Source of the DNA: a virus
Virus record (IMG/VR): IMGVR_UViG_3300043466_001193
Span: 1 to 31,705 of that record
Reading direction: 5' to 3' (one strand)
Length of the DNA stretch: 31,705 bases
Translations under genes and position numbers: made by a program
Shown: piece after piece, positions 8,755 to 17,543 of the stretch
Numbering within the stretch: position 1 is the first letter of the stretch
How the letters are laid out: each line of letters starts with the position of its first letter
Notes under the pieces: generated by a model
The model's database searches: none
What the model saw: only the letters and a program-made list of their open reading frames with translations
Told to the model about the DNA's origin: nothing

Positions 8755-8860
8755 CTTCCGTATATCGTACATAGGCGACTGCATAGCCAATGATTATGCC
8801 TGAGATAAAGGCGGTTAATACTAAGAGTCCAGATTCTATCATAGTTGTGATTTTAGCCAT
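8741..8860 (-). CDS. 39-residue single-pass membrane peptide
   Basis: This short ORF runs from ATG at 8860 to TGA at 8741-8743. It reads MAKITTMIESG, then a hydrophobic stretch (LLVLTAFISGIIIGYAVAYV), then RYTEDDCL. The membrane helix is clear, with a short polar N-terminus and an acidic tail. The start overlaps the upstream replication-type gene by 22 bases and the end overlaps the downstream gene, the compact arrangement seen for real genes here. Small early phage membrane peptides often target host envelope functions; no function can be assigned. Confidence 0.5.
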   Translation of the reverse strand: MAKITTMIESGLLVLTAFISGIIIGYAVAYVRYTEDDCL

Positions 8861-9357
8861 GTAAAGTTTCTGCCTTGCATAATCATCCAGTCAAATGTCC
8901 ATTGCACACAGGCACAACGGCACTTTTGGTTATCATCCCCATAGGCAGCTCTAAGGATATCAATATCATCCTTGCCAAATCGTTTGAGCATCTTATTTGA
9001 CTTTAGATAGTCGTACCACTTATCCATTTGGTTAAAGGGTACTTTCTCAAAGTTTAACTTATACATCATTAAGTCATAGTCTAACTTCTCTAAGTCTGTC
9101 TCTGGTACTTTAGCCTCTTGGATTGGTCTGTAACCAGTTGGGGTCTTTTGTAGGTTATGCCTATCCTTGTTATTATTAGCCCATCTAGCCAGTCTCCTAC
9201 CAAGGTCCCAGGTTGTCTCTTGCTCAAACCTCATTTTAGTATTCGACTTATTTGGCTCTGACCAATAATCGTAAAACTCTTGCTTCATTTGCTCTGTAAA
9301 GGCAAAGGGTTGTAAGTCTCTCTTAAAGTCTGCTGCTCTTGCTTCTATACTTTTCAT
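8839..9357 (-). CDS. Probable phage replication-associated protein (DUF7833-like)
   Basis: A 172-residue protein with a conserved-looking N-terminus: FAFTEQMKQEFYDYWSEPNK, then KMRFEQETTWDLGRRLARW. This 'FY.YW.EP....KMRFE...TWD...RL..W' pattern is one I associate with Bacteroidota phage and mobile-element replication proteins (replisome-organiser C-terminal or DUF7833 type); this is from memory, not a search. The C-terminal half has CRCACVQW, a possible metal site (three Cys within five residues). It is the first gene after the structured intergenic stretch and may act with the DnaA-like protein at a nearby origin. Confidence 0.55.
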   Translation of the reverse strand: MKSIEARAADFKRDLQPFAFTEQMKQEFYDYWSEPNKSNTKMRFEQETTWDLGRRLARWANNNKDRHNLQKTPTGYRPIQEAKVPETDLEKLDYDLMMYKLNFEKVPFNQMDKWYDYLKSNKMLKRFGKDDIDILRAAYGDDNQKCRCACVQWTFDWMIMQGRNFTWLKSQL

Positions 9358-9688
9358 AGATTATTTACTTAAACGAAAAGACATAATATACCCTATAAGG
9401 GTGTTATTCCTTTTTTTATTTTAATAATTCATTTCAGTATTGTAGTCGTTCGGATTATGCCAATCCTATCGCAATCTTAATGAACCCACAATCGGGCGGA
9501 CCCCCTGTATTATCTGCACCACTTTGGCAAGATGCAGTCGGACACTCTCTCTTTAATCACTAAGCCAATACCTTATAGAACTATTATTTTTGCAACTATC
9601 GGGGACAATCTCAGCTCTATTTGAACCTACCAACCCGACTTCTGGACCACTATCTACCTACAAGGCCATCATGGTCGTTAATGTTGCT
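9358..9688 (-). other. Structured non-coding region; candidate origin or leader
   Basis: About 330 bases without a credible gene, between the 98-nt RNA unit and the replication-type gene. It holds several foldbacks: ACCCT-ATA-AGGGT at 9390-9402, GGATT-ATGCC-AATCC at 9452-9466, CTGCA/TGCAG arms at 9514-9518 and 9533-9537 enclosing CCA-CTT-TGG, and a near-palindrome GGCCAT-C-ATGGTC at 9664-9676. A homopolymer-rich A/T tract lies at 9411-9428. No leftward TAnnTTTG is visible, so the downstream gene probably depends on readthrough from upstream. Lying next to a DnaA domain IV gene, it is the best origin candidate in the genome; a long structured 5' UTR is the alternative. Confidence 0.5.
9390..9402. 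promoter_or_regulatory. Inverted repeat, possible operator
   Basis: ACCCT-ATA-AGGGT, a perfect 5-base inverted repeat with a 3-base centre, 33 bases upstream of the leftward replication-type gene. The position suits a protein-binding site; the HTH or DnaA-like proteins nearby are possible ligands. No second copy was noticed. Confidence 0.35.
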
Positions 9689-9739
9689 AAATAAAAAACC
9701 CACTGAGGATTGGCAGAGACAGCCGCACCCCAATGGGTT
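9689..9739 (-). terminator. Intrinsic terminator or attenuator of the leftward transcript
   Basis: The arms 9728-9739 and 9697-9708 pair over 12 bp when read on the minus strand, with two G-U wobbles that would be C-A mismatches on the plus strand, so the RNA is leftward. A small GGC/GCC stem sits inside the loop. The stem is followed by six U, A, three U. It ends the short transcript started by the promoter at 9792-9823 and may attenuate the genes beyond. Confidence 0.8.
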
Positions 9740-9787
9740 AGTAAATCTTTATAAAAACAAAGCAGCATAAGCTGGTCTCTCTTTGTT
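9690..9787 (-). ncRNA. Candidate 98-nt structured phage small RNA
   Basis: A transcript starting at the expected start of the upstream promoter (about 9785-9787) would open directly with a hairpin. AACAAAG pairs with CTTTGTT (plus coordinates 9781-9787 and 9756-9762), and an inner CAGC-UUAU-GCUG stem sits at 9763-9774. A 6-base bulge AGAGAC lies at 9775-9780. After a 16-base linker comes the terminator hairpin, whose loop contains GUCUCU (9715-9720), an exact complement of the bulge, so a kissing or pseudoknot contact can form. There is no ORF inside. It may be an independent small RNA, or an attenuating leader for the genes downstream. I cannot match it to a named family. Confidence 0.6.
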
Positions 9788-9791
9788 AATA

Positions 9792-9823
9792 CAAATATAC
9801 GAAAAAAATATCAAACTGCCAAA
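9792..9823 (-). promoter_or_regulatory. Strong Bacteroidota-type promoter, leftward
   Basis: Read on the minus strand: TTTG (9820-9823), a spacer of exactly 20 bases, then TATATTTG (9792-9799). This is a full match to the Bacteroidota -33/-7 consensus and the best promoter in the window. The -33 element lies in the last codons of the DnaA-like gene. Transcription should begin near 9785-9787, at the first base of the hairpin RNA. Confidence 0.8.
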
Positions 9824-10236
9824 TTTATTTTGCCTAAATGGTCTAAAAATAGTATTTCCTTATAAGATTTGACTCTGGTCATCCGCATAGAAATCTCCAA
9901 ATCAGAGGCTAAGTCTATGACTTTCAAATAATAAGGAAAGAATCTGGGGTCCTCGGTCTGGATGTAAAACTCAATCTTTGATCTATAAATACTCATGGTA
10001 GAGTGGTCCTTATATCCGACTAAAGGGGCTATCTCGGTAAGTCTTAAAGGGCAGTGGCGGTAGATAAAGTAGGATAAGGCCATACGAATTTCAGAGAGCC
10101 TAATTACCTCTCCTTTGTCATTTTTGATAACCTTCCAGTGATTCCTTCGCTTTATCTCTTGTAGCTGCTCTAAGGTTATACCATAGTAATCACAGACTGC
10201 TTGTACTAAGTTAAAGGCTTGTTCTTTTGTGTTCAT
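9811..10236 (-). CDS. Stand-alone DnaA domain IV-like protein, putative replication initiator
   Basis: A 141-residue protein whose core, about residues 48-88, resembles the DNA-binding domain IV of DnaA: 'RMALSYFIYRHCPLRLTEIA' then GYKDHSTMSIYRSKI, with the DHST signature at 77-80 corresponding to DnaA's DHTTV. The N-terminal helix (EQAFNLVQAVCDYYGI) fits the start of that domain. No AAA+ ATPase region is present, so it can bind DNA but not unwind it. I infer an origin-marking or competitor protein that directs host replication machinery. It overlaps the HTH gene by four bases and lies just before the hairpin RNA and structured intergenic region. Confidence 0.78.
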   Translation of the reverse strand: MNTKEQAFNLVQAVCDYYGITLEQLQEIKRRNHWKVIKNDKGEVIRLSEIRMALSYFIYRHCPLRLTEIAPLVGYKDHSTMSIYRSKIEFYIQTEDPRFFPYYLKVIDLASDLEISMRMTRVKSYKEILFLDHLGKINLAV

Positions 10237-13633: not shown

Positions 13634-13863
13634 TGGAAAAGCAGAAAAGAGGTAGAAAACCAAAGCCTGCACATCTGAAAGTGCAAATGGTTACAGCCTA
13701 CATTACAAAAGAGCAGAAAGACCTGATAAACAAAGAGTTCGGTAACCTTACTAATGCTGTAAAAATTCACATTTTAAGCAAATTCAATGGACATCGTGAT
13801 AGCTTTGGGCACTGGCAGCCGGTGGATGGACAACGAGCTGAGGTATGCCCTAAGATCGATTGA
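13633..13863 (+). CDS. Small AT-hook-like DNA-binding protein, putative regulator
   Basis: A 76-residue basic protein starting MEKQKRGRKPKPAHLK. KRGRKPK is an AT-hook-like minor-groove-binding motif. It is followed by 'MVTAYITKEQKDLINKEFGN', a strand-helix pattern reminiscent of ribbon-helix-helix regulators. ATG 13633 is preferred over the upstream TTG at 13615 because the -7 promoter element lies between them. The last 25 residues are encoded in the 77 bases that overlap the next gene. Its position at the divergent promoter and its A/T-binding motif suggest an early/late switch or autoregulator; this is inference. Confidence 0.65.
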   Translation: MEKQKRGRKPKPAHLKVQMVTAYITKEQKDLINKEFGNLTNAVKIHILSKFNGHRDSFGHWQPVDGQRAEVCPKID

Positions 13864-14476
13864 ATCGTATCTTAAAGGGCACTCCGGCCGCATTCTACTA
13901 ATAGGCGAAAAGCCTAAATGGATAAAGAATGTGGACTACTACGACATCCCAGATAAGCCGGGCCGCAAGAACTTTAGCATCTTTCAAAAGATACTGACTG
14001 GATGCGAGATGTGTAATGGGGATGACTTTATTTTTTGGAATGATGACCACTTCTTACTTAAAGACCTAAAAGTTACAGATTTTAAGTATTGGTATGATGG
14101 CACTACGGTACAATACTTTCAAAAGGCTGTCGGACTTTATAAAAAGGCTGTTGCAAACACAATGGCTCTGCCTAAAGTCAATGACCTTTATACAGATATT
14201 CATGTGCCCATCGTTTACAATAAGCATGAATTTAGCAAGCTCTTAAATATAGACTGGTCAAAAGAGTACGTTATTAAAACTGCCTATACTCGGACTCAGG
14301 ATGGTGGCTTTGAGTACATGGCAGACCTAAAACTCAATCAGCAGTACAGCCTAAATCAATGGTATGGCAAGCTCCATGCCCGGACATTCTTTAGTATCGG
14401 CTCTTATGCGGTCAATGCTGACTTTAAGATACTCATGGAAAAACTATACCCTAGAAAATCACAATACGAAAAATGA
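13787..14476 (+). CDS. Stealth-like sugar-phosphate transferase / glycosyltransferase
   Basis: A 229-residue protein with the layout of the Stealth family (hexose-1-phosphate transferases of capsule synthesis): DIVIALGTGSRW (CR1-like), DNELRYALRSIESYL leading to EKPKWI, then FIFWNDDHFLL with NDD at 85-87 (CR2-like), and IHVPIVYNKHEF (CR3-like). It is shorter than usual Stealth proteins and lacks an obvious CR4. Expected activity is transfer of a sugar or sugar phosphate to a glycan in the cytoplasm; donor and acceptor are unknown. It starts inside the regulator gene and overlaps the next gene by four bases, opening a six-gene glycan cassette. Confidence 0.68.
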   Translation: MDIVIALGTGSRWMDNELRYALRSIESYLKGHSGRILLIGEKPKWIKNVDYYDIPDKPGRKNFSIFQKILTGCEMCNGDDFIFWNDDHFLLKDLKVTDFKYWYDGTTVQYFQKAVGLYKKAVANTMALPKVNDLYTDIHVPIVYNKHEFSKLLNIDWSKEYVIKTAYTRTQDGGFEYMADLKLNQQYSLNQWYGKLHARTFFSIGSYAVNADFKILMEKLYPRKSQYEK

Positions 14477-15444
14477 GAATCTTTATCCAAAGCCCAAACA
14501 TCAATAGCCGACATGGAGGCATCAGAGTCATCAATGAGTGGGCTAACAGGTTAGAAGGCTTTGGGCATAAGGTCATCCTTTACAACCAAGCCGGTCCAGT
14601 AAGATGCGACTGGATGACTATAACTTGTAAGATTGTAAATACTACTAATCTATTGGCAAATTCTGATCTGCTAATAGTAACCAGCCCACATGGGGCAAGC
14701 CTATTAAGTAAAGACAAGCCTTATAAGAAAGTAGTCTTTTTGCAGATGTTGGAGCATCTCTTTAACATAACTAACAAGGCCTTTTTTGATAGTTGCTTTA
14801 CTCTATACTCTACCAAATATCCTCTTATCTCTATAAGCCAGTGGAATATTAGGATTTTACAAAACACATACAAAAGAACAGGACCGACATTTTATGTAGG
14901 TAATGGAGTTAATCTTAATGATTTCCCGATAAGCAACAAGTCAAAAGATGGTAAAGTAGCCTTATTGGAATCTCCAGAGCCAACTAACATGGCAAAAGAC
15001 ACAGAAAAAATAGCGGTACAAGTAGCCAAGAATCTAAAAGAAAAGGGATGGATAATAAAAGGCTTTGGCTTACATAAAGCAAAAGACAATATTTATACTG
15101 AGTATGTAGTCAAACCAGACCTTGCCACAATGAATCGGCTCTATGAGGAGGCCACAATAATGATAAAGGCCACAAAGTATGATGCGAGGTCCACAGCTCC
15201 TTTAGAGGCTGGCACAAAGGGCACTGTAACAATTAGAGGGATTATAGAGGGAGATGATGACCTAAACGAGACTAATAGCTTTAAGACTGGCTATTCTTAT
15301 GACAAATTATTTGACTCGACCATGTTTGCTTTACACCATCCCGATCAATTACAAGAAAAAGCAGACAATATTCGTAAATATGTCCAAACTTACACTTGGG
15401 ATTATTGGATGACTAAAATCAATGACATTTTATGCAACTTATAG
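14473..15444 (+). CDS. GT-B glycosyltransferase, family 4-like
   Basis: A 323-residue protein. The N-terminus MRIFIQSPNINSRHGGIRVI followed by NEWANRLEGFGHKV is the typical GT4 acceptor-side opening (Gly-Gly loop, then helix and HKV strand). A mid-protein FYVGNGVNLNDF matches the V.NGVD..F linker of GT4 enzymes. The C-terminal half has a donor-site-like segment (ARSTAPLEAGTKGT, with an E in the EX7E position). Both overlaps (4 and 13 bases) tie it to the cassette. Donor and acceptor cannot be deduced. Confidence 0.78.
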   Translation: MRIFIQSPNINSRHGGIRVINEWANRLEGFGHKVILYNQAGPVRCDWMTITCKIVNTTNLLANSDLLIVTSPHGASLLSKDKPYKKVVFLQMLEHLFNITNKAFFDSCFTLYSTKYPLISISQWNIRILQNTYKRTGPTFYVGNGVNLNDFPISNKSKDGKVALLESPEPTNMAKDTEKIAVQVAKNLKEKGWIIKGFGLHKAKDNIYTEYVVKPDLATMNRLYEEATIMIKATKYDARSTAPLEAGTKGTVTIRGIIEGDDDLNETNSFKTGYSYDKLFDSTMFALHHPDQLQEKADNIRKYVQTYTWDYWMTKINDILCNL

Positions 15445-15872
15445 TAGGATGCGGTCCGAACTGGCCTAAAAGAGAGAATGACATTTTCTTAGATTGTCGC
15501 AAGTTTGACAATGTAGATGTAGTGCATGACCTAAATATCACACCTTGGCCATTCAAAAATGACCAGATGACTGAGATAGCAGCTATTCATGTGGTAGAGC
15601 ATCTTAATAGTTTATTGGACTTTATGAATGAGAGCTGGAGAATATTAAAAAAAGGGGGAGCCTTATACATAGAAACTCCCGAAGCCGGGGCAAATGTTGA
15701 CCTCCAATTTGCTGATCCTACACACATAAGATGTTATCGGAAGCATACCTTTATAAATTACTTTACTTTATCTGAGGCTCCTAAATTTGGTTACACAGAC
15801 AAATATTGGGCTATAATGCACTTAGAGACTAAAGATGGCAATATAATCGCACACCTAACACCATTAAAATGA
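15432..15872 (+). CDS. SAM-dependent methyltransferase-like protein
   Basis: A 146-residue short class I methyltransferase-type protein: LIVGCGPNWP (motif I, shortened), DIFLDCRKF, VHDLNITPWPF, AIHVVEHL (post-II) and RILKKGGALYIETPE (post-III). This 'VGCG...LD....V.HDLN..PWPF...E....HV.EHL' series recurs in sugar or small-molecule methyltransferases of polysaccharide clusters. The fold lacks full-length N- and C-terminal parts, so it may be a minimal enzyme or need a partner. It overlaps both neighbours. Confidence 0.72.
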   Translation: MQLIVGCGPNWPKRENDIFLDCRKFDNVDVVHDLNITPWPFKNDQMTEIAAIHVVEHLNSLLDFMNESWRILKKGGALYIETPEAGANVDLQFADPTHIRCYRKHTFINYFTLSEAPKFGYTDKYWAIMHLETKDGNIIAHLTPLK

Positions 15873-16477
15873 GAATACTAATAGTTGTATTAGAATACTT
15901 AGAGCCGGATTGGTTGCAGACCTTAAAGTGTGTGCAAGACACTGGCCTACCTTATGAGATTGTCAGCCGGGATGGAGTAGGCAATATGTCGAGGGCTTAC
16001 AATTCTATCATAAATAAAGAGGCCGACTATTACTGGTTTGTCTCAAATGTTACTTTCAGCCCTCAGATGCCTTATATGCTGGCAATGGCTTGCGAGGAGA
16101 GGGGCTGGGCTGGCATCCATCCGGCAATGCGGTCATCAGATCACAAATTCCAATGGCCTAATGGTAACGAACCTAAAGAGACCCCATTTATCGAATGGAC
16201 TGCTCCTATGGTTAATGCAGAGATATTTAGGGATAATCTCTTAGATGAGATGCTACCATACTACTACATGGACTTGGATTGGTGTCATAGGGTCAAGCCT
16301 AATAAGGTAGGGGTGCATCATGGTCAGGTAGTAGAGCATACTTATTTAAGAAACAAGCAAGAGCATCCCATCGGGCAACTAAGAAAGCAACTAAGGAACT
16401 ACTGGACCCCTATCAGTCAAAGACATATGATCCAGAAATACGGAAAGGATTGGCAACAAAAACTATGGCCTAAATAA
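15869..16477 (+). CDS. GT-A glycosyltransferase, family 2-like
   Basis: A 202-residue protein with GT2-type features: MRILIVVLEYLEPDWLQTLK strand-helix, SRDGVGNMSRAYNSII (nucleotide-side helix), YYWFVSNVTFSP (DxD-like position replaced by SN), and PYYYMDLDWCHRV, matching the acceptor-side ED(V/L)D(W/L)C.R segment of rhamnosyltransferase-like enzymes. The missing classical DxD may mean altered metal use or that Asp residues elsewhere serve. It overlaps the methyltransferase by four bases. Confidence 0.68.
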   Translation: MRILIVVLEYLEPDWLQTLKCVQDTGLPYEIVSRDGVGNMSRAYNSIINKEADYYWFVSNVTFSPQMPYMLAMACEERGWAGIHPAMRSSDHKFQWPNGNEPKETPFIEWTAPMVNAEIFRDNLLDEMLPYYYMDLDWCHRVKPNKVGVHHGQVVEHTYLRNKQEHPIGQLRKQLRNYWTPISQRHMIQKYGKDWQQKLWPK

Positions 16478-16482
16478 AAACT

Positions 16483-17103
16483 ATGACAACTTTAGAACTA
16501 CATGGAATTTACCATGAATTAAACTTCTGGCAAGGCTTTGTAAAAACCGACCGATTCTTAAAGGGTTGGGTAGGTAAGGGCAAGACCCCAGAATTAAACC
16601 AAGAGGTAGCAGACTTTATCAAAAGTGTTCCACATGAATCCGTTTTGGATGTGGGATCAGGGGTTTGCTCAATTCTTAATGGATTAGTCAATGTAACCCC
16701 TTGCGATCCATTGGGAGACCTCTACAAGCTCGTTTTTGACTTTGAGAGACATAAACTAAAAGCCCCACTACCAATACCAGCCGAGGAGTTAAACTTTAAG
16801 AATGAGTTTGACATAGTACATATCTCAAATGCTCTGGATCATACCCAAGAACCAAGAAAGGCCTTAGACTACCTTTTACAAGCGGTCAAGCCCGGTGGGT
16901 ATCTAATAGTCCAAGGTTTTTTTAATGAGGCCACACATGAGAACTGGCAAGGCTTCCATCAATGGGATATCTCTTTAGATGATGATGGTTGCATGGTTAT
17001 CTTAGGCAAGAAGTCAAAGACAATAATTGCATGGCCTCCACATAAGTTTGCAACAGTCAATTTATTAGGTCGGGATTGGTATTATTGGATAATAAAAAAG
17101 TAA
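16483..17103 (+). CDS. SAM-dependent methyltransferase
   Basis: A 206-residue class I methyltransferase: VLDVGSGVCSILNG is motif I, then PLGDLYKLVFD, FDIVHISNALDHTQEP (motif II/post-II with an 'alDH' helix start) and AVKPGGYLIVQGFFNE (post-III). The pattern resembles methyltransferases of O-antigen or capsule loci. It is six bases downstream of the GT2-like gene, with an A-rich leader and no Shine-Dalgarno. With the second methyltransferase it suggests a methylated glycan. Confidence 0.8.
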   Translation: MTTLELHGIYHELNFWQGFVKTDRFLKGWVGKGKTPELNQEVADFIKSVPHESVLDVGSGVCSILNGLVNVTPCDPLGDLYKLVFDFERHKLKAPLPIPAEELNFKNEFDIVHISNALDHTQEPRKALDYLLQAVKPGGYLIVQGFFNEATHENWQGFHQWDISLDDDGCMVILGKKSKTIIAWPPHKFATVNLLGRDWYYWIIKK

Positions 17104-17105
17104 AC

Positions 17106-17543
17106 ATGGTAATCTGCTGTGATATAGATGGCTGCTTAACAGATGGCAAAATCTGGGTTGACCATCAAGGAAACATCATCAAGTCGTTTAATAACAAAGA
17201 CATCGGAGCCATCAAAGAGCTAATCTCTATGGGCTTTCAAGTCCACTTAGTAACCGCAAGCAGTTGGCCAGGTGCAGAGCAATACCTACGGAGGTCTGGG
17301 GCTCAGTTGCACATAATACGGAATAAAGAGACTATCCCCTTTGACTATCAAATAGCCATTGGAGACTCGGCATGGGATATACCTATGCTATGTAAGGCAA
17401 AACACTTATTTTGTCCGGCAGATGCCTCTTTAGAGGTCAAGTGCTTAGATGGGGTACATCCACTAAAATCACTCGGTGGTCAAGGAATCATGCTTGAATT
17501 GGTCCGCATACTTAGTCAATGGAATAGTGATGTTGATAAGTAG
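17106..17543 (+). CDS. KdsC-like HAD phosphatase
   Basis: A 145-residue HAD phosphatase starting MVICCDIDGCLTDGKIWVD: D6 and D8 of motif I, T50 of motif II (HLVTAS), K74 of motif III, and motif IV GDSAWDIPML (D87, D91). The SFNNKDIGAIK segment parallels SFN.RDG.GI(K/R) of KDO-8-phosphate phosphatase and related acylneuraminate enzymes, which are cap-less tetramers of similar size. It would dephosphorylate a sugar acid or sugar phosphate feeding the cassette. I start at 17106, two bases after the previous stop, instead of the overlapping 17076. It is the last cassette gene before a terminator. Confidence 0.85.
   Translation: MVICCDIDGCLTDGKIWVDHQGNIIKSFNNKDIGAIKELISMGFQVHLVTASSWPGAEQYLRRSGAQLHIIRNKETIPFDYQIAIGDSAWDIPMLCKAKHLFCPADASLEVKCLDGVHPLKSLGGQGIMLELVRILSQWNSDVDK

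Follow-up and report, generated by a model that had tools for sequence, protein, structure and literature searches.

A predicted small RNA with a covarying bulge-loop contact next to a DnaA-like gene in uncultured phages

Layout and genetic environment of the RNA1 locus

The window, i.e. the whole 31,705-nt stretch of viral DNA under analysis, harbours on its minus strand a gene coding for a 141-residue protein (9811..10236) with a helix-turn-helix like that of the C-terminal domain IV of DnaA (Pfam Bac_DnaA_C, E=6e-7, just under the curated cutoff). This phage protein corresponds to the DNA-binding part only, and at least four diverged subfamilies keep its GY.DHS/T signature. It is a possible origin-binding protein. 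Downstream on the same strand lies a phrog_19415 gene (8839..9357), the product of which has an N-terminal part common to proteins whose genes, in other phages, neighbour those of helicases or helicase loaders. Between the two genes is a predicted small RNA of ~98 nt that we call RNA1 (9690..9787, minus strand), composed of a hairpin, a linker, a terminator hairpin and a U tract. Elsewhere in the window, methyltransferase, HAD-hydrolase-like and Stealth-like genes (13787-17543) are found between the replication and head modules and are possibly devoted to sugar or surface modification.

The promoter of RNA1 consists of a -33 element, TTTG (9820..9823), and a -7 element, TATATTTG (9792..9799), both on the minus strand and separated by N20. 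The latter fits the Bacteroidota consensus, TAnnTTTG with TTTG near -33 (PMC7366714). In the window, the -33 TTTG sits within the 3' end of the upstream gene. Four nucleotides, TATT, separate TATATTTG from the first base of hairpin 1 at 9787, the predicted transcription start.

Hairpin 1 (9756..9787, minus strand) comprises 11 bp, formed by AACAAAG (9787-9781) with CUUUGUU (9762-9756) and by CAGC with GCUG. Its elements follow each other in the order AACAAAG, the 6-nt bulge AGAGAC (9775..9780), CAGC, UUAU, GCUG and CUUUGUU. An A/U-rich linker of 16 nt (9740..9755) leads to the terminator hairpin (9697..9739), the stem of which, AACCCAUUGGGG (9739-9728)/CCUCAGUGGGUU (9708-9697), has 12 pairs including two G-U pairs. 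It is topped by a 3x3 internal loop UGC/AAU, a 3-bp stem GGC/GCC and the 7-nt loop UGUCUCU, and it is followed by the U tract UUUUAUUU (9689..9696), as read from the sequence. The bulge and the GUCUCU of the terminator loop (9715..9720) are the 5' and 3' arms, respectively, of a hypervariable contact helix that we named K. The RNA1 strand folds with a z-score of -3.8 (1/200 shuffles equally good), and the opposite strand with a z-score of -2.8.

These elements had been noticed in a first-pass annotation of the sequence, the coordinates of which (9690-9823) were correct on rereading. The promoter with its start near 9787, the 11-bp hairpin with a 6-base bulge and a 16-base linker, and the 12-bp terminator stem with two strand-specific G-U pairs and a U tract are all present as described. 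Its observation that the terminator loop complements the bulge stands for GUCUCU (9720-9715), with the refinement that the 'loop' is made up of the internal loop, the 3-bp stem and the 7-nt loop.

RNA1 is followed by a conserved noncoding block of ~300 nt and then by the phrog_19415 gene. At least three types of the block, unrelated to each other in sequence, were distinguished (A, B and C, with examples at window 9360-9690, L004:3549-3860 and L031:11771-12107), and they are swapped independently of the RNA1 allele. No Rfam match was found for these block types, and their fold z-scores range from -1.0 to -2.8. Motifs such as CAATGGCAACAAGGACAACCGTAACTT are conserved in type C and suggest another structured RNA or an origin. 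In another relative (L012:3854-4252), the type A block continues into a reading frame that encodes a DUF559-like nuclease (Pfam, 22.5 bits) and is probably that of a mobile endonuclease. Of this nuclease ORF, the window retains the start alone, at about 9359-9382 (minus strand), with a stop after seven codons (MSFRLSK*). Two relatives, L209 and L214, harbour another gene instead of phrog_19415, with no detectable similarity in the pair compared (L214 with the window; L209 was assessed by reading).

Conservation and distribution of RNA1

Relatives were gathered via the upstream gene (9811-10236), then with patterns of the RNA core and then via the downstream gene. We thus collected 21 distinct RNA1 sequences, window included, from contigs of uncultured phages; the relatives are metagenomic records throughout, many of them fragmentary. 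A covariance model recovered all 21 sequences at E<=6e-11, 15 of which had served to build it. RNA1 is single-copy, with one strong match per record in the 20 phage records that were searched whole. Wherever the upstream side was examined, a gene coding for a DnaA-domain-IV-like protein of ~140 residues directly precedes RNA1.

The two promoter elements are exactly 20 nt apart in all 21 sequences (TTTG in 19, TTAG in two), and 3-5 nt, mostly 4, separate the TATATTTG-type element from the first hairpin base. In L022, the upstream gene stops well before the promoter and the -33 TTTG is intergenic, so promoter conservation is no by-product of coding. The basal stem of hairpin 1 (ACAAAG/CUUUGU) is invariant, as is most of the terminator stem; the distal stem-loop is variable, and the linker ranges from 12 to 16 nt. 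In diverged members, the terminator internal loop is GGA/AAA or GAA instead of UGC/AAU. The U-G and G-U pairs of the terminator stem are invariant in 21/21 sequences, which marks the minus strand as RNA. That both a promoter and a terminator of its own are conserved among homologues argues for an independent small-RNA gene.

The first-pass annotation had suggested an Rfam scan. No family of Rfam 15 matched the window or the homologous loci at the gathering threshold, and relaxed thresholds gave chance-level matches with no family for RNA1. Searches for similar DNA in named phages and plasmids returned chance matches or none. A loose core pattern, GGGTGCG..CAATCCT, had >120 matches, but the terminator is present in none of the newly fetched ones, and a match in a bacterial genome (L020) turned out to be unrelated sequence. 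The covariance model detected no RNA1 at more distant DnaA-domain-IV-like loci (L221-L238, L255-L258, L266, L267), and a descriptor scan of 15 of those yielded a single match (L222), which we read as chance. A descriptor scan of named phages that share the N-terminus of the downstream gene product likewise revealed no RNA1. Based on Rfam 15 and on these searches, RNA1 is a new family of predicted structured phage RNAs with its own promoter and terminator. The promoter type and weak protein relatives, found mostly in Flavobacterium, Riemerella and Bacteroides phages, suggest that the hosts of the carrier phages are probably Bacteroidota.

Covariation and turnover of helix K

The 21 RNAs harbour 14 different bulge/loop alleles, each with a matching loop: AGAGAC, AATCGC, GTCAGC, TAGGAC, GTTCGC, GAGAGC, CTGGAC, ACTCGC, GATCGC, GGCTAC, GCTCAC, GGCCAC, GACGAC and GTTCCC (bulge side). 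All 126 bulge-loop positions of the 21 sequences can pair, 125 of them as Watson-Crick pairs and one as G-U. When loops were shuffled among the 14 alleles, 50 +/- 4 pairs (maximum 67) of 84 formed, compared with 84 observed; the pairing is therefore not due to chance. The covariation score of K is 0.418, against 0.125 +/- 0.012 for shuffled and <=0.056 for slid pairings. The bulge has 6 nt, except in L022 and L181 (7 nt), which have an additional, unpaired A; the model misplaces this insertion, which accounts for the unpaired K cells in its alignment. Identical alleles occur on diverged backbones (AGAGAC in the window and L012, TAGGAC in L009 and L016).

The first-pass annotation had proposed a small RNA with a bulge-to-loop contact and held that a lack of compensatory changes in homologues would speak against it. 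Such changes were found throughout, decisively so, and conservation extends to promoter, hairpin and terminator together. By the measure of covariation, the six base pairs of K are real. The sequences thus show K pairing along with the promoter, both hairpins, the strand, the single copy and the linkage to the DnaA-domain-IV-like gene.

To what extent the parts of RNA1 differ between close relatives varies widely, bearing in mind that the phage pairs are not independent and that these figures are descriptive rather than P values. The four outer positions of K differ in ~75-82% of cases, i.e. like random letters, the distal loop in 53%, the distal stem in 45%, the linker in 30%, and the basal and terminator stems in 3-4%. 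Four-fold codon sites of the two flanking genes differ in ~20%. Three relatives, L014, L015 and L016, share a near-identical linker and terminator and have three different K pairs. Between the near-identical RNAs of L015 and L016, two K pairs have changed in both arms (CTGGAC/GTCCAG and TAGGAC/GTCCTA), the hairpin being the same, which offers a clean case for a study of the joint mutation of paired positions. K is thus replaced faster than neighbouring neutral sites, which might be driven by diversifying selection, allele recombination or template switching. Among 10 alleles tested, 11 heterologous combinations have >=5 in-register pairs, compared with 11.1 for random hexamers. The alleles are no more orthogonal than random, an argument against strong selection to prevent cross-pairing.

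We also searched for further partners of K. When 12 phage genomes carrying different alleles were aligned in pairs, the hexamers were exchanged at the bulge and the loop only (116 exchange matches, all within RNA1), and no third site covarying with K was found in the flanks and these genomes. A third covarying partner encoded by the phage is thus unlikely in the aligned parts; a host-encoded partner may exist.

Possible roles of RNA1 and comparison with known RNAs

The best explanation, to which we attach about an even chance, is that RNA1 is a free-standing, structured phage small RNA in which K is probably intramolecular. RNA1 would be made from a dedicated Bacteroidota-type promoter, with a start at about 9787, and its own intrinsic terminator would end it at about 9690. 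The hairpin-1 bulge would pair with the terminator loop into the 6-bp helix K, most likely within one molecule, yielding a compact pseudoknot with the two hairpins side by side and the 12-16-nt linker bridging them. Geometrically, a linker of at least 12 nt should allow the hairpins to meet within one molecule. The invariant basal stem and the conserved terminator internal loop would then serve as a contact surface, presumably for a protein, in the early or replication phase. We infer a replication-phase role, as a weak probability, from the location of RNA1 and its conserved surfaces.

An ordinary intramolecular helix does not account for the variability of K, which exceeds that of the purely structural distal stem and of four-fold codon sites. 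In the main rival reading, which we regard as doubtful, K would form between RNA1 copies, the bulge of one pairing with the loop of the next to give dimers or rings. The variable letters would then be a self-recognition code keeping the RNAs of co-infecting phages apart. The topology, an internal bulge loop with an apical loop, is that of the phi29 pRNA contact, and in pRNA, ROOL B4 and GOLLD B7, published covarying contacts of this type proved to be between molecules. The ~75-82% of differences at the outer K positions, against ~20% at four-fold sites, and the recurrence of alleles on diverged backbones are also as expected of a specificity locus. Nevertheless, mutual orthogonality among the 10 tested alleles does not exceed that of random hexamers, and with an ordinary TerL that includes a nuclease domain, the phage has no need of a pRNA-type packaging ring. 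The stronger proposal that diversifying selection acts on the letters of an intermolecular K because they tell self from non-self among co-infecting phages is improbable in our estimation; if true, RNA-RNA identity would control replication, copy-number sensing or superinfection compatibility. The same variability might arise without specificity, if K is just a structural helix and complementarity of its arms is maintained by the way they mutate, either when replication switches template between short inverted repeats or when recombination exchanges RNA1 alleles. We consider this tentative, at somewhat below an even chance. It would account for the single G-U intermediate among 126 pairs, the two pairs changed between L015 and L016 with the hairpin unchanged, the recurrence of alleles across backbones and an orthogonality equal to random expectation, and template switching has been documented to produce compensatory changes of several bases (PMC8794818). 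However, arms of 6 nt at a distance of ~54 nt make a weak substrate, and in the same close pairs variation is clearly lower in the distal stem (0.45) than in K (0.82). The mutational mechanism bears on tempo alone and is compatible with an intramolecular pseudoknot.

The first-pass annotation had also raised the possibility of an attenuator, with RNA1 as the leader of the downstream replication gene and a terminator regulated by a ligand or a protein. RNA1 does precede the phrog_19415 gene in the same orientation, and its terminator would also block read-through from the upstream operon. We nevertheless hold this role to be very unlikely. No antiterminator alternative was found in single-state folds or in the consensus pairing, K forms in addition to the terminator hairpin and does not compete with its stem, and no riboswitch or leader family of Rfam matched. 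RNA1 is kept where unrelated sequence has taken the place of the 300 nt that follow it and even of the next gene, and the downstream gene of L214, and by reading that of L209, is unrelated to the one in the window. RNA1 thus has no stable link to any one downstream gene, an argument against attenuation. That the locus acts as DNA, with hairpins of an origin, is the least probable reading, with hardly any chance of being correct. The adjoining DnaA-domain-IV-like gene and the ability of single-stranded DNA to form hairpins are in its favour, but the invariant G-U pairs favour a minus-strand RNA, and a conserved promoter and a U tract frame it.

RNA1 represents an unusually clean tertiary contact, in which the letters vary freely and the pairing is near-exceptionless, in an otherwise nearly invariant RNA. 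It raises the questions of whether short phage RNAs oligomerise via covarying loops, like pRNA, ROOL and GOLLD, and of what makes a pairing helix outpace codon third positions. Given the variable K in a near-invariant RNA, both are directly testable, and with ~98 nt and 14 natural alleles RNA1 is easily made and swapped in vitro.

Short variable loops also set pairing specificity in plasmid antisense or kissing RNAs of the ColE1 RNA I/II type, the partner being a second RNA from the opposite strand. Unlike in those, both arms of K are in one RNA, with no third covarying site. The trpB motif (RF04312) resembles RNA1 in having a hairpin followed by a terminator. We discarded it, as its gathering score of 59 is far above the chance-level match of RNA1 (18.9 bits, E 2.6), and its model has no K contact. 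RNA1 was likewise rejected as a phi29 pRNA (RF00044), with no model match (unlisted by cmscan of 9600-9900 at E<=10), no three-way junction and an ordinary phage TerL. The RH and LH loops of phi29 pRNA are short variable sequences that always match (PMC12670572), and ROOL and GOLLD are phage or prophage RNAs with covarying loop-to-joining-region kissing contacts (PMC12286853); in all three, these contacts are intermolecular (PMC12670572, PMC12286853). ROOL and GOLLD have several hundred nucleotides and form nanocages, unlike the ~98-nt RNA1, which is unrelated in sequence. Like RNA1, phi29 pRNA comes from a phage, measures ~100 nt and has an internal bulge loop and an apical loop that covary and match. 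Nevertheless, the 21 RNA1 sequences have two linked hairpins without a three-way junction, helix A or any 5'-3' closing helix, and RNA1 differs from pRNA by a contact of 6 bp rather than 3-4, a terminator of its own and a location in the replication region.
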